A stretch of 33,396 bases of DNA from Clostridiales bacterium (GTDB lineage Bacteria > Bacillota > Clostridia > Christensenellales > Aristaeellaceae): assembly GCA_016930575.1 (NCBI GenBank), contig JAFGGL010000056.1, positions 1 through 33,396 of the forward strand, given 5' to 3'. The translations under genes and the position numbers were made by a program. Of this stretch, positions 2,672 through 8,495 are shown in pieces. Below the pieces are notes generated by a model. The model was not told the DNA's origin. It saw nothing but the letters and a program-made list of their open reading frames with translations, and made no database searches. The first letter of the stretch is position 1. Every line of letters starts with the position of its first letter.

Positions 2672-4105
2672 TTATGCGTCCGGTTTGATCTTCTCAGCCA
2701 TTACGGCGTTGATAAACTCCGCCCGGCTGCGGACGGCATACTTGGAGTATATATTCTTGACATGGAATCTGACCGTATTCTCGCTGATATGCAAATCCGA
2801 GGCGGCCGTGCGATACGTTATCCCCCGGGTCAACAGTAAAGCTATTTCTGTTTCTCTTGCCGTAAGCTTCCCTGCCATGGCGGATTCGCTGATCAGGCGA
2901 TTGCGTTCCTGCCGCGATATTCCGGAAAACTCCGTCAGGTATTCGTGAGTTCTCAGCAAGCCGGTAAGCCGCGCATACAGCGGCGGAAGCATGACGAGCG
3001 TCACGCATACGATGGCGAGCGCCAGCAGCGAAGGATAATCTCGCCCGCTTCCGAGCGCGCCCGCGATCAGCTCGCCCAGCAGTATGCCCAGAACATTGGC
3101 GAAGAGCCCGGATCCCATGATCCTGGCAGAATTCTCGTGAAATTCCAGCATCTCGCCCAGCATGGTCCACCAGAACAGATTGAATATGCCGACCGCGCCG
3201 AACATCAGCGTGTGCACGAAAAGATAGCTTAGCGCTGAGCGATCAAGCAGCATGAAGCCGATAAAGGAAAAACCGGTCATAGCGATGGCGGCGTAGAGAA
3301 TATGGGCGCGCTTTACCCTGCTCGGAAGATAGCGGACAACCATCACACCCGCGATATAGGGAACCGCCCAATACCAGCTGGTGAGCTGCTCAAGGTGTGC
3401 GAAAGCAGGAAACTGGACCTGATACATCAGCCCAACGTTTATTGCAACGATTACGATGAACAGGCACAGAAAGAATAAAGGCTTTCCAATACTCACATGG
3501 TTCTCCTGCGATCGGGCAGCCTGTCGGCTCTGCGTATCCCCATGCGGCGGAAGCCGCAGGCACAGCAAAAACATAATGCCCAACGGCAGAATTGCGAGCG
3601 CTACTCCCACTTGCGCGGAAACGGCTATGGATGCCTTGACGAGCAGGAGTAGCAGAATATAGCTTAAGGCCAGCATTTCCGCTATGGTTTTGCTGCGCTG
3701 GGTTTTCGGCGTCCCGCTTTTCAGAAAATATCCCCAGGACGCTACGCAGAATCCAGCCGTAAACGAGGATGAAAAAAGCGCGGCGTACCACCAATTCGAG
3801 GGCGGAAAGAAGAAAACGGCGGAAGCCACGGCACAGTAGGCTATGGATATCAGCATCAGCCGCTTTGCTGAGCGCATGGATTTTACAAAAAAACCGCAGA
3901 GCAGAAGCCCGGCGGAATGAGCGACGATGGAACCCAAAACGAACGGAAGAGAGGAAACCTGATAGCGATCCAGAAGCGCGTAGAGTATTTTGCCTTCGAA
4001 AGGAATGGTAAACAGCCATGCGGCAAAAAAAGCCAGGACGAGGACTGAAAGCCTTCGGACATCCAGCATGAAAATATTAAGCTTTTTATGCTTCACAGTA
4101 TTCAT
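2672..4105 (-). CDS. Membrane-bound LuxR-family transcriptional regulator with transporter-like N-terminus
   Basis: The product has 477 residues. Residues from about 15 to 390 are a string of roughly 12 hydrophobic segments resembling an MFS-type fold. The C-terminal residues 413-470 form a LuxR/GerE helix-turn-helix: LTARETEIALLL, then a recognition helix with ISENTVRFHVKNIYSK. I chose the ATG at 4105, which has GGAAGAAG about 7-9 nt upstream. A TTG at 4204 would add 33 residues with no better ribosome site. Such one-component regulators, common in Eggerthellaceae and some Clostridia, are thought to sense a small molecule or membrane state and act on nearby genes. The nearest downstream gene, 187 nt away on the same strand, is the DUF6273 protein, which is the obvious candidate target (inference). 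Confidence 0.85.
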   Translation of the reverse strand: MNTVKHKKLNIFMLDVRRLSVLVLAFFAAWLFTIPFEGKILYALLDRYQVSSLPFVLGSIVAHSAGLLLCGFFVKSMRSAKRLMLISIAYCAVASAVFFFPPSNWWYAALFSSSFTAGFCVASWGYFLKSGTPKTQRSKTIAEMLALSYILLLLLVKASIAVSAQVGVALAILPLGIMFLLCLRLPPHGDTQSRQAARSQENHVSIGKPLFFLCLFIVIVAINVGLMYQVQFPAFAHLEQLTSWYWAVPYIAGVMVVRYLPSRVKRAHILYAAIAMTGFSFIGFMLLDRSALSYLFVHTLMFGAVGIFNLFWWTMLGEMLEFHENSARIMGSGLFANVLGILLGELIAGALGSGRDYPSLLALAIVCVTLVMLPPLYARLTGLLRTHEYLTEFSGISRQERNRLISESAMAGKLTARETEIALLLTRGITYRTAASDLHISENTVRFHVKNIYSKYAVRSRAEFINAVMAEKIKPDA

Positions 4106-4222
4106 GGTTTCGCTTCTTCCGATGAGCCGCCATATAGCGCTTTTCTCCGTACCGTTCGAATAACCAATTGCCTTTATTCTATATGACAATGGGGATTTAC
4201 GCAATTCTTTCGGCAGCCCCGC

Positions 4223-4671
4223 TCAGACGTTCAGGCTTTCAAAGAACTGAACGGCGCCCTGTATATCTTCCGCATTGGGCCTGCCCTTGTTCACGCCGCC
4301 CACCAAGCGGAGGGGCCGAAGGTATCCAGCCCGACGCTCCAGTAAAAGCCGCAGGGTTCAAAGCCCTGGTCGCGGAGCAGGGCCGTGAAGCGCTGGCCGT
4401 ACTTGGCGCCCTCGTCGTCGCCGCAGGTGTAGACGGCAAACGCTTTGCGCCCGTCCCCCTGCAGGCCGCTGAGCGCTTTTCACACGCTGCGGTGCGGCTT
4501 TCCGGCGTACACGCCCGAGGCGATACCGACGGTGTCGAACTGTGCGATATCGAAGTCGTCCTCGCCCGCCTTTGCCAGCACCACATCCGGATCTGCCTGA
4601 ACGATTGCGTCCAGCAGCTTTTTGGTGTTCCCGTGATGGGGAGAGCGGTAGAGTATGATAGTCTTTGGCAT
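4223..4671 (-). pseudogene. Flavodoxin-family protein, broken by a stop and a frameshift
   Basis: An ATG at 4671 has AAAGGAG about 7 nt upstream. The protein begins with a flavodoxin FMN-phosphate loop (ILYRSPHHGNTKKL) and continues to the GVYAGKPH segment. An in-frame TGA then sits at 4480-4482. Beyond it the same frame goes on as KALSGLQGDGRKAFAVYTCGD, so reading through is clearly homologous. A second lesion lies at the G run 4312-4315 (C run on the coding strand): one base is missing between FGP and RLVGGVNKG, and the natural end is the TGA at 4223-4225. The repaired length of 149 residues is normal for this single-domain family, whose members are FMN electron carriers. It follows dppA by 41 nt and may once have been co-transcribed with it. 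Two sequencing errors are possible but less likely than decay. Confidence 0.8.
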
Positions 4672-5741: not shown

Positions 5742-5782
5742 TAGAGGGATGAAAGGAGCGCCGCGCACGCGGCATCATCAAA

Positions 5783-6625
5783 ATGAGAGATATCGCGATA
5801 CTCGGAAAAGGCCCTGCTGGACTCAGCTGCGCCATCACGGCGCGGATGCGCGGCCTGGACGCGCTGATGATCGCGCCGAAAATCAACCTGAGCTGGCTTG
5901 CGCGCACCGACCGCGTGGACAACTATCCGGGATTGAAAGAAGTATCCGGCGCGGATCTTCTCAAGGCCTTTGAGGACCAGGCGGCCTCAATGGGCGCCCA
6001 GACCATGCACGGCACGGTGCGCCAGATCCTGCCCACGGACAGCGGCTTCATGCTGCTGGTGGAAAACGACGTGGTGGAAGCTAAAACCGTCGTGCTCGCC
6101 ATGGGCGCCGCCAAACCCAAGCTGCTCCCCGGAGAGGAAGAACTCATCGGCGCGGGCGTCAGCTACTGCGCGACCTGCGACGGCCACTTCTACAAGGGCA
6201 AATCGATCGCAGTGTTCTCCGAAAACGACCAGGGAGTCGAGGAGGCTGAATTCCTGCGGGATATCGTGGGCAAGATGGATTATTATCCGGTAAAGAAGCA
6301 CGACGTTCCCGGGGACTTCAACGTGATCGACGAACGTCCGACGGCCCTGTATCAAACGGACGGCGGCGTCGGCGTCGAAACGAAAGAAACCAAACGAAGC
6401 TACGACGGCGTATTCGTCTTCCGTACGGGCATGCCCCTGAGCATGCTGCTGGAAGGGCTTGCCATGCAGGACGCAGGCATCGCCGTGGACCGCAGTATGC
6501 GAACCAACATTCCGGGGGTATTCGCCGCAGGGGACTGCACGGGCAAACCGCTGCAGGTGGCAAAGGCCGTGGGCGAGGGCAACGTCGCCGCGATCGCCGC
6601 CGCGGAGTATATCCAAAAAGGATGA
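5783..6625 (+). CDS. Thioredoxin-reductase-like flavoprotein lacking NADPH motifs
   Basis: The product has 280 residues. The N-terminal FAD fold shows GKGPAG (8-13), and the C-terminal FAD motif is AAGDCTGKPLQVAKAVGEG (248-266). The redox disulfide is CATC at 129-132, as in low-molecular-weight thioredoxin reductases. The middle domain is about 30 residues shorter than usual. Where NADPH-dependent enzymes have GGGxSA and an HRR cluster, this one reads SENDQGVEEAEF and YYPVKK. It should therefore bind FAD and reduce a disulfide partner but probably does not use NADPH. Ferredoxin-dependent flavin thioredoxin reductases of clostridia are the known precedent, so that is my best assignment (inference). 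No thioredoxin gene lies nearby. The ribosome site is weak; the ATG was chosen because GKGPAG follows at the normal distance. Confidence 0.85.
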   Translation: MRDIAILGKGPAGLSCAITARMRGLDALMIAPKINLSWLARTDRVDNYPGLKEVSGADLLKAFEDQAASMGAQTMHGTVRQILPTDSGFMLLVENDVVEAKTVVLAMGAAKPKLLPGEEELIGAGVSYCATCDGHFYKGKSIAVFSENDQGVEEAEFLRDIVGKMDYYPVKKHDVPGDFNVIDERPTALYQTDGGVGVETKETKRSYDGVFVFRTGMPLSMLLEGLAMQDAGIAVDRSMRTNIPGVFAAGDCTGKPLQVAKAVGEGNVAAIAAAEYIQKG

Positions 6626-6695: not shown

Positions 6696-7736
6696 ATGAA
6701 GAAACGCGCATTCCGTACAGTACTTGCTTTCGCGTTTACCCTTTGCCTGCTGGCGGGTATAACCGGCGCCTATGCCATGGAAGATGTCAGCGGCGCTGAT
6801 TATCTGGCGATGCGCCCGGTGATGGACCTGGTGGCGAGCGCCGCGATCAGCGCCAGCGATTTTCCGACAGTGGTCAGCGACGAGATGAGCACGCTGGACC
6901 AGAACTTCGTAACCTTCTTCTTCTCCAACGGTTTGAAAGCCTCGCTTTTAGGCATTACGGACGCTACGCTTTCAGACGTCGCGCTGCAGGAGCAGTTGCT
7001 CAAGAGCGTGTTCTCCGCAAAGCTGCCCGCGCTGGATGCGATCACCCCGGTGGAAACCTCGGATGATTATACCGGCTTCCTGCCCGTGAAGCGGGAAACG
7101 GCGGATAACGGGGATGTCTACCTGATCGGTGAAGTGTATCGCGGATCAATGCCCATCGGGCAGATGAGCGCCGTGGAGTATCCGACGCTTGCGTGGGAAG
7201 ACCGCGCGATCTATACCCTGAGCGCCGATGATACCGCGCTTGGCGGATACAGGGTAGACGGGTTCTCCGTCGGCTCTGAACTGCTGATGGAGATGCAGTT
7301 GCAGGATTATACCAACGCGATCCTGATGGAGTATATCAATACCAAACTCGGGTTCTCCATCCTGTATCCCAGCCTCTTCACCGACCAATATGTAATCGAG
7401 AGCGCGGACGGCGCCAGCGCGGCCCTGCCCGACGGCAGCGCTAGCTTTTTGATCAAGCGCATGGATAACGCAAGCAACGCGACCCTGGACGAGTACGCGT
7501 GGGAAATGGCGGCCGTCGCCGGAGACGCGCGCGTGAACATCAACGAGATGTTCTCGCAGGTGACCATCGCCTATGAGACCGAAGCCGGAAACTCGGTGTT
7601 TACGGTGTATGTCGTCACCGACGACTATATCTACATGGCGCAGCTTGCCTACCCCACGAACCAGTCCGTAATCTACAGCATGTATACCGAGTACCTGGAA
7701 AACTCCTTTGTCGTCAACGAGGTCAGCGTAGGATAG
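6696..7736 (+). CDS. Secreted protein of unknown function
   Basis: The ATG at 6696 follows GGGAGGAAACCTTC. An upstream in-frame ATG at 6459 lies inside the reductase gene and is rejected. The 346-residue product starts with a signal peptide (KKRAFRTVLAFAF, hydrophobic core, cleavage near AYA-ME). There is no Cys in a lipobox position, and the mature part has no Cys. The C-terminal half (from about 210) contains GFSILYPS, a pattern seen in extracytoplasmic PsbP-like or DUF-type domains that begin with a description of a beta sheet, followed by alternating beta segments. I do not recognise the family. It lies 70 nt after the reductase with no terminator between, and 9 nt before another secreted protein, so the three are probably one operon. 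Confidence 0.75.
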   Translation: MKKRAFRTVLAFAFTLCLLAGITGAYAMEDVSGADYLAMRPVMDLVASAAISASDFPTVVSDEMSTLDQNFVTFFFSNGLKASLLGITDATLSDVALQEQLLKSVFSAKLPALDAITPVETSDDYTGFLPVKRETADNGDVYLIGEVYRGSMPIGQMSAVEYPTLAWEDRAIYTLSADDTALGGYRVDGFSVGSELLMEMQLQDYTNAILMEYINTKLGFSILYPSLFTDQYVIESADGASAALPDGSASFLIKRMDNASNATLDEYAWEMAAVAGDARVNINEMFSQVTIAYETEAGNSVFTVYVVTDDYIYMAQLAYPTNQSVIYSMYTEYLENSFVVNEVSVG

Positions 7737-7745
7737 GTGCGACTG

Positions 7746-8495
7746 ATGAAGCGGTTCCTGAGCGTTCTTTTGGCGCTGTTGATGCTGCCCGTAGCGGGCG
7801 CATTGGCGCAAAGCGAACAGCCGGATTCCTCCCTGCTCGGCGTGGTGTATTACCCGCGCGGAAGCACCGAGGAAACGGCTTCGTTTGCGTTTCGCTACCG
7901 TCTGCCGCAGTTTTCCGCCGAACAGCCGCAATACGAAGCCGTTAACCAATACTTCGCGTCTTATGCGGCGGACGTCGTGGAGACCCTGATACCCGCGACG
8001 ATCGGCGCGCTGGACGAACTTCCGGCAAGCGGTGAACCGGAGTATTATGTGGACCTGGATTACCGGATCACGGCCAGTACCGGGGATCACCTGAGCGTTC
8101 TTCTCAACAGCCAGCAGTTTCTGGGGAATACGCTGACGGAACAATGGGTGTCCGTCGTATTCGCGCAGGACGGCATCTACGCCGGACAGCCGATCTCGCT
8201 TTCCCAGGCCATGGGGCTTGAGCAGGAGAGCGGCGCCGGGGATGTGGCGTCGGAACTGGTTTACGGGCTGGTCTGGCAGATCATCCGCTATGAAACCGAC
8301 GCGATGCGGGGCGCATATTTCCCCGATCTGACGGAGGAGGAATACCGCCTCGCGTTCTCGCCGCAGGACGATTTCTATTTCGACGAGGACGGGAATTTCG
8401 TCTTTTTCATCCAGGCGGGCACCGTAGCCGGCGAGGTGGAAGGCGTGCTGACCTATCCGTTTTCCCTGGCCGAACTCCTGAGTGGAATTGTTTAG
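7746..8495 (+). CDS. Secreted DUF3298/RsiV-like protein
   Basis: The product is 249 residues from the ATG at 7746. A GTG at 7737, directly after the upstream stop, would add three residues. A signal peptide (MKRFLSVLLALLMLPVAGALA) is followed by a mature domain with the layout of DUF3298 (RsiV C-terminal) proteins. These are RYRLPQF..., a central beta strand with LSVLLNSQQFLGNT, the FAQDGIYAGQPISLSQAMG turn, and a closing FYFDEDGNFVFFIQAGTVA...YPFSLAEL. In RsiV this fold binds lysozyme, but many family members are uncharacterised and no sigma factor gene is near. No Cys and no membrane anchor apart from the signal. Last gene of the operon that starts with the reductase; a terminator follows. 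Confidence 0.72.
   Translation: MKRFLSVLLALLMLPVAGALAQSEQPDSSLLGVVYYPRGSTEETASFAFRYRLPQFSAEQPQYEAVNQYFASYAADVVETLIPATIGALDELPASGEPEYYVDLDYRITASTGDHLSVLLNSQQFLGNTLTEQWVSVVFAQDGIYAGQPISLSQAMGLEQESGAGDVASELVYGLVWQIIRYETDAMRGAYFPDLTEEEYRLAFSPQDDFYFDEDGNFVFFIQAGTVAGEVEGVLTYPFSLAELLSGIV

Follow-up and report, generated by a model that had tools for sequence, protein, structure and literature searches.

A clostridial-type thioredoxin reductase that probably draws its electrons from ferredoxin in an uncultured lineage of Aristaeellaceae

The gene at 5783..6625 (+ strand) of the analysed window, that is, of the whole 33,396-nucleotide stretch of Clostridiales DNA, very probably encodes a clostridial-type, tail-less ferredoxin-dependent flavin thioredoxin reductase (FFTR) that takes electrons from reduced ferredoxin; we put the probability of this reading at about 0.87. 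Homology and fold comparison identify the 280-aa product as FFTR-type, and the gene is a further member of a known family. The original FFTR structure paper reportedly dates from 2018, and the work on C. pasteurianum is said to go back to 1983. The initial annotation of this DNA had rightly seen a precedent in the clostridial enzymes, but it implied more novelty than there is, because the FFTR family has already been described and crystallised. The presence of FFTRs in Clostridia is established (PMC10880999, PMC12796991, PMC8469568, PMC9025218). By analogy with the characterised FFTRs, the electron donor, the activity, the conformational cycle, thioredoxin as the substrate, and a homodimeric state would apply to the window protein as well.

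The open reading frame runs over 280 codons from ATG to TGA with no internal stops, and its frame has been kept, as 45 further homologues align with it at 32-66% identity. The translation contains the FAD-binding GxGxxG motif as GKGPAG (residues 8-13; 5804..5821, +), the redox-active disulfide CATC (residues 129-132; 6167..6178, +), and the C-terminal FAD motif AAGDCTG (residues 248-254; 6524..6544, +), so that the elements described as intact in the initial annotation are all in place. Among the 46 aligned rows, both CATC cysteines are present in every one, as are G250, D251, and G254 of the C-terminal motif, while G8, G10, and G13 are found in 46, 45, and 41 rows, respectively. The same annotation had reported that GGGxSA and the HRR cluster were missing and that the middle domain was shortened, and the alignment with the NADPH-type thioredoxin reductase (NTR) 4gcm agrees on each point. 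SENDQG (residues 146-151; 6218..6235, +) stands at the place of the NADPH motif GGGDSA. YPVKKH (residues 168-173; 6284..6301, +) stands at the place of HRRDELR (HRRxxxR) and, judging also from the lengths, is followed by a shortened loop. The matched region covers 276 residues of the window protein against 299 of 4gcm, which leaves the window protein 23 residues short, and most of the gaps fall in the middle domain; for the FFTR 6gna the corresponding figures are 275 and 277. According to the translation and the model, the protein ends with YIQKG straight after the last helix (259-279), and the C-terminal Trp tail of the cyanobacterial FFTR/DTR subtype, which was looked for in the window protein, is absent. 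The string AAAGGAG at 5752-5758 was rejected as a ribosome-binding site, since it occurs 5 times in the window against 2.87 expected, which is no better than chance.

Sequence searches and phylogeny separated the window protein from the NTRs. The best full-length PDB matches in phmmer were the FFTRs 6gnc (E 3.8e-54), 6gna (2.1e-53), and 6gnd (5.3e-52), and the NTR 4gcm (1.9e-41), Gloeobacter 5j60 (3.4e-33), and Desulfovibrio TRi 5nii (3.9e-28) came later. TIGR01292, the NTR family, was the best NCBIfam match, but its 199.8 bits did not reach the curated cut-off of 343.45, and with the NADPH motifs absent as well, the window protein does not class as an NTR. The main tree, built with the NADPH-motif columns taken out, comprised 46 FFTR-type rows (the window protein and 45 selected homologues), 19 NTR-type rows (18 loci and 4gcm), and 2 crystal FFTRs. 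It split the 46 FFTR-type rows together with 6gna and 6gnc (48 in all) from the 19 NTR-type rows with support of 100/100 and in 100% of 200 bootstrap trees. In the alignment, GxGxxA/G was found in 1 of 46 FFTR rows, 19 of 19 NTR rows, and neither crystal FFTR; the corresponding counts for an HR or RR pair were 1 of 46, 15 of 19, and 0 of 2. These motif counts are partly circular because the FFTR and NTR labels were assigned after the motif strings had been seen, whereas the tree is free of this circularity because the motif columns had been removed. The NADPH motifs have thus been lost, as the initial annotation stated, but this is an old loss common to the FFTR group and not a recent event in the window gene; a freshly decayed NTR is ruled out by the shared FFTR group and the intact frame.

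Within the FFTR part of the main tree, the window protein belongs to a supported six-row set (100/99) made up of its genus and near relatives. The crystal FFTRs lay on another supported branch in an earlier tree that contained one misframed NTR row (L080). They are therefore not the nearest kin of the window protein, and the transfer of function runs between FFTR branches and not within one. In addition, L032 and similar loci of Oscillospiraceae and Ruminococcaceae (e.g., L037-L040) code for FFTR-type proteins of 270-290 aa that have GGGEEA, resembling an NADPH site, and no HRR; these proteins are a possible intermediate in motif loss. FFTR-type homologues also occur in records outside Bacillota, namely Calditrichales bacterium MX18-03 (L016, 47% identity) and two Coriobacteriia (L024 and L030, 40-41%), which suggests gene transfer, a wider distribution, or mis-binned contigs. 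The closest named records are metagenome-assembled genomes labelled as Christensenellaceae, Eubacteriales, and Clostridiales bacteria, and the match figures of L003, L004, L005, and L008 coincide with those of the loci in G002, G005, G003, and G001, all placed in the window's genus; the window therefore probably stems from an uncultured clostridial anaerobe.

The predicted fold pointed in the same direction. The AlphaFold2 model, computed for a single chain without cofactor from the 46-row alignment, had a pLDDT of 92.4 and a pTM of 0.80. In Foldseek it superposed on 6gna with a TM score of 0.90 (rmsd 2.3) and on 6gnc with 0.83 (rmsd 3.3). The NTRs listed gave TM scores of 0.50-0.59 with rmsd of 11-16, including 4gcm (0.58, 15.5) and 5mh4, an NTR in the FR form (0.59, 11.6). 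Similarly, VIA-align ranked 6gnc (Z 32.8, rmsd 3.3, 280 residues aligned), 6gna (Z 32.5, rmsd 2.2, 279 aligned), and 6gnd (Z 31.4) above 6xtf (29.2), 5nii (28.7), and the NTRs listed (27.8 or less). The Gloeobacter oxidoreductase 5n0j, which we take to be DDOR, stood further down the list (Z 27.0, rmsd 15.7). Since TM score, Z, and rmsd all favour FFTRs over NTRs, the predicted arrangement of the two domains is that of the open FFTR crystals. Structure prediction against both types of reductase was the check proposed in the initial annotation, and the model fits the ferredoxin type.

In the proposed mechanism, pyruvate:ferredoxin oxidoreductase (PFOR) or similar enzymes would charge 2[4Fe-4S] ferredoxins. 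The enzyme would expose its FAD in the open, flavin-reducing form and take up one electron from each of two such reduced ferredoxins. The CATC domain would swing in so that FADH2 could reduce the CATC disulfide, and would then swing out so that dithiol-disulfide exchange could reduce a WCGPC thioredoxin. This is modelled on the characterised FFTRs, in which, according to PMC12796991, ferredoxin reduces the FAD of the open form in two one-electron steps, and the dithiol passes electrons to thioredoxin after a domain movement. Candidates for each of these components were found in the genome of the window (G000; 2.35 Mb, 95.2% complete, 4.97% contamination). There were 31 matches to Fer4_10, including stand-alone 2[4Fe-4S] ferredoxins of 66 and 56 aa. 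A PFOR-like gene lies in a 1179-codon frame, in which the POR, EKR, and PFOR_II domains match a stretch of 987 aa. PF00085 gave 4 matches, of which 2 are classical WCGPC thioredoxins of 103 and 105 aa and the other 2 are weaker.

Other thioredoxin reductases were searched for in the same genome. TIGR01292 matched it 16 times at E ≤ 0.01, never over the cut-off, and 2 of these matches are parts of the FFTR itself. None of the best 4 of the other 14 (L117-L120) has a CxxC at the place seen in thioredoxin reductases; three of these open reading frames lack a CxxC altogether, and the only CxxC of the fourth is close to its C-terminus. The FTR beta subunit had no match in the genome, in a search that was positive in only 2 of 14 control genomes. 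Judging from these searches, the FFTR is probably the only thioredoxin reductase in the window's genome. Its role as the only one in the cell is supportable but unproven.

The neighbourhood of the gene was compared with that of related FFTR-type loci, of which 95 were taken, 88 were distinct, and 87 had at least 400 bases downstream. In 24 of these 87 loci, the FFTR gene is followed, no more than 400 bases downstream and in the same orientation, by a gene for a WCGPC thioredoxin. The 24 include four loci of the window's family that belong to other genera (L097, L098, L103, and L105) and none of its own genus, and the FFTR genes of the window and of its congeneric loci have no thioredoxin gene next to them. 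These downstream genes link the FFTR family to thioredoxin, and the window gene by kinship only. In the window, the FFTR gene is followed by two genes for secreted-looking proteins, 6696-7736 (+) and 7737-8495 (+), which recur in related FFTR loci with 14 and 19 distinct homologues, respectively. The first product had no Pfam match and has one cysteine, inside its signal-like stretch; the second had only two sub-cut-off matches (PdaC and DUF3298) and has no cysteine. Given these missing or sub-cut-off matches and the scarcity of cysteines, the two proteins are not obvious redox partners, and a co-transcribed redox partner in the window was ruled out on the grounds that both look secreted and have one cysteine or none.

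The initial annotation had also noted a broken flavodoxin gene nearby and suggested it as a possible partner. The gene is indeed broken: in the flavodoxin-domain pseudogene at about 4223-4671 (- strand), an in-frame TGA follows the first 63 codons, and a frameshift comes further on, ahead of the C-terminal part. The genome has 3 flavodoxin-domain matches over the cut-off elsewhere, and an apparently intact gene for a 165-aa flavodoxin-domain protein lies on contig C28. Neither the fragment nor the C28 protein had a homologue among the open reading frames of at least 60 aa in 96 related loci (blastp, E 1e-3), a search without a profile that a diverged flavodoxin could escape and in which some loci offered only about 1.5 kb of flank. 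Since the window gene is broken and the search of the related loci was empty, the flavodoxin was rejected as a partner, and that suggestion found no support. Beside the pseudogene, a 510-aa open reading frame at 2672-4204 (- strand) combines an MFS-like part, whose Pfam match stays below the cut-off, with a LuxR-type HTH (GerE) at the C-terminus, and its product is therefore perhaps a membrane-integral regulator.

Two other readings concern the source of the electrons. The protein could be a pyridine-nucleotide-independent reductase of the kind found in Desulfovibrio vulgaris (DvTRi, 5nii), with flavodoxin, another flavoprotein, or free flavin as the donor in place of ferredoxin. DvTRi has the same fold, works independently of NAD(P)H, and is described as having an unidentified reductant (PMC5627308); it comes next after the FFTRs in the structure list, and the flavodoxin-domain proteins encoded elsewhere in the genome would be available. 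However, 5nii is far behind 6gnc in the sequence search (3.9e-28 against 3.8e-54) and superposes with an rmsd of 4.5, compared with 2.2-3.3 for the clostridial FFTRs. Moreover, the only flavodoxin gene nearby is broken and has no counterpart beside the relatives, and in a tree of which DvTRi itself is no row, the window protein groups with the crystal FFTRs, apart from the NTRs. We consider this reading unlikely. Alternatively, the enzyme might still depend on NAD(P)H through a rearranged and unrecognised nucleotide site. The Rossmann-like middle domain is retained, and Pyr_redox_2 and TIGR01292 still match the window protein; a degenerate nucleotide site would be compatible with the sequence, and we counted it against the FFTR reading. 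Yet both nucleotide motifs are absent in the window protein and each is seen in 1 of 46 FFTR rows, the nucleotide part is shortened, and the characterised FFTRs cannot use NADPH, as reported in PMC12796991, which makes continued dependence on NAD(P)H very improbable. The view of the initial annotation that the enzyme works without NADPH and takes electrons from another donor can be retained for ferredoxin, in line with the sequence, the tree, the fold, the neighbourhood in relatives, and the genome content, but not for flavodoxin.

We are less sure of the substrate than of the kind of donor, because Ala replaces the contact Arg/Lys and neither the window nor its congeneric loci have a thioredoxin gene next to the FFTR gene. 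The motif GR/KG is described as a thioredoxin-contact motif (PMC9025218). At the place of its Arg/Lys, which 27 of 46 aligned rows retain, the window protein has Ala124 (6152..6154, +). It reads GAG and HF where 6gna and 6gnc have GRG/GKG and PL, the second string standing at the place of FF. Ala124 could weaken or alter the recognition of thioredoxin, and loci of the window's genus have Met or Ala at this position. The residues at this position and the gene neighbourhood speak for a reading in which the protein is a ferredoxin-dependent, FFTR-fold disulfide reductase that acts, in this genus, on another protein or a small disulfide and not on classical thioredoxin. Against it, position 124 varies widely over the 46 rows (R 24, Q 9, M 4, K 3, and A, S, and N 2 each), too much across the FFTR group to be decisive, and the genome codes for two WCGPC thioredoxins for which no other reductase was recognised. 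We regard a different substrate as improbable, marginally more so than the DvTRi-like donor; as it shares its donor with the main reading, the odds of the two are not exclusive. Reduction of thioredoxin by a ferredoxin-dependent FFTR is still the reading that we prefer.

The distribution of FFTRs was surveyed in 60 genomes of the window's family, including its own, all at least 90% complete, with an FFTR profile and TIGR01292 at E ≤ 1e-30. The classes were well separated: with the FFTR profile, FFTR-type proteins reached 324 bits or more, against a maximum of 214.1 for everything else listed; with TIGR01292, NTR-like proteins reached 248 bits or more, against a maximum of 205.4 for FFTR-type proteins. 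FFTR only was found in 18 genomes, both types in 22, an NTR-like protein only in 14, and neither in 6 (G062, G063, G068, G072, G074, and G091). These figures call for caution, as a stop codon interrupts 4 of the 40 FFTR matches, the NTR-like match of G067 is incomplete, and the assemblies are fragmented. Three genera were FFTR-only in every sampled member (g24, 3/3; g58, 2/2; g66, 2/2), and seven mixed FFTR-only with other states: g14, g29, g30, g56, g59, g63, and the window's own, with 1 of 4. By a crude binomial with 10% missing sequence, which assumes independence and an NTR expected in each genome, FFTR-only in 18 of 40 is unlikely to arise (1.3e-8).

At E ≤ 1e-20, 4 of the 5 other genomes of the window's genus had an NTR-like match, and there was none in G002, which is only 60% complete. 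These NTR-like genes are divergent, coding for proteins of 407-408 aa with GSGDAA or 541-549 aa with GAGFAA, both without HRR. The shorter ones (L137, L138, and L139, from G003, G004, and G005) also have CATC, and AANTG at the place of the aromatic pair that follows CxxCD in NTRs. A literature search returned no paper combining thioredoxin reductase, Christensenell- names, and ferredoxin-dependent. We give a little better than even odds to the idea that a substantial minority of the family's species, that of the window included, reduce thioredoxin solely from ferredoxin.

Among known systems, the closest in structure are the FFTRs of C. acetobutylicum (6gna and 6gnc, with 6gnd as the complex with thioredoxin). 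They have 284-287 residues against 280 in the window protein, share 35-37% identity with it, and likewise have CATC, no NADPH motifs, and no C-terminal Trp tail, with the open arrangement also predicted in the window model. CaFFTR2 is described as tail-less in PMC8469568. In contrast, the window protein has Ala124 for Arg/Lys and lies on a different branch of the FFTR group, and its gene is followed by those for the two secreted-looking proteins and not by a thioredoxin gene. TrxB1 and TrxB4 of Clostridioides difficile, FFTRs by sequence, are similar as described in PMC10880999, where they group with clostridial FFTRs and have no NAD(P)H motifs. According to the same source, their genes are in operons with trxA and the genomes also have NTRs, whereas the window has no adjacent thioredoxin gene and its genome no NTR-scoring gene that we could find. 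The FFTR/DTR of Gloeobacter violaceus (5j60 and 6xtf) resembles the window protein in fold (Z 29.1-29.2) and is assigned to the NADPH-independent, ferredoxin-dependent group (PMC12796991). However, the cyanobacterial FFTR is described there with a C-terminal tail whose Trp stacks on the FAD, and the window protein stops at residue 280. Finally, the D. vulgaris TRi is reported as an NAD(P)H-independent, low-molecular-weight thioredoxin reductase (PMC5627308), and is more distant in both sequence and fold.

Our results add an uncultured lineage of Clostridia to the range of an already described enzyme family; the enzyme itself is ordinary. They also point to species in which a ferredoxin-dependent enzyme is the sole thioredoxin reductase that can be recognised, whereas according to PMC10880999 NTR and non-NTR types occur together in most Negativicutes and Clostridia. 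If these species have indeed no NADPH-dependent and no iron-sulfur reductase, the redox state of their thiols would be coupled directly to the fermentative reduction of ferredoxin, a link reported for Gloeobacter and Prochlorococcus. If confirmed, the FFTR-only species would be clean systems for thiol homeostasis without NADPH input.
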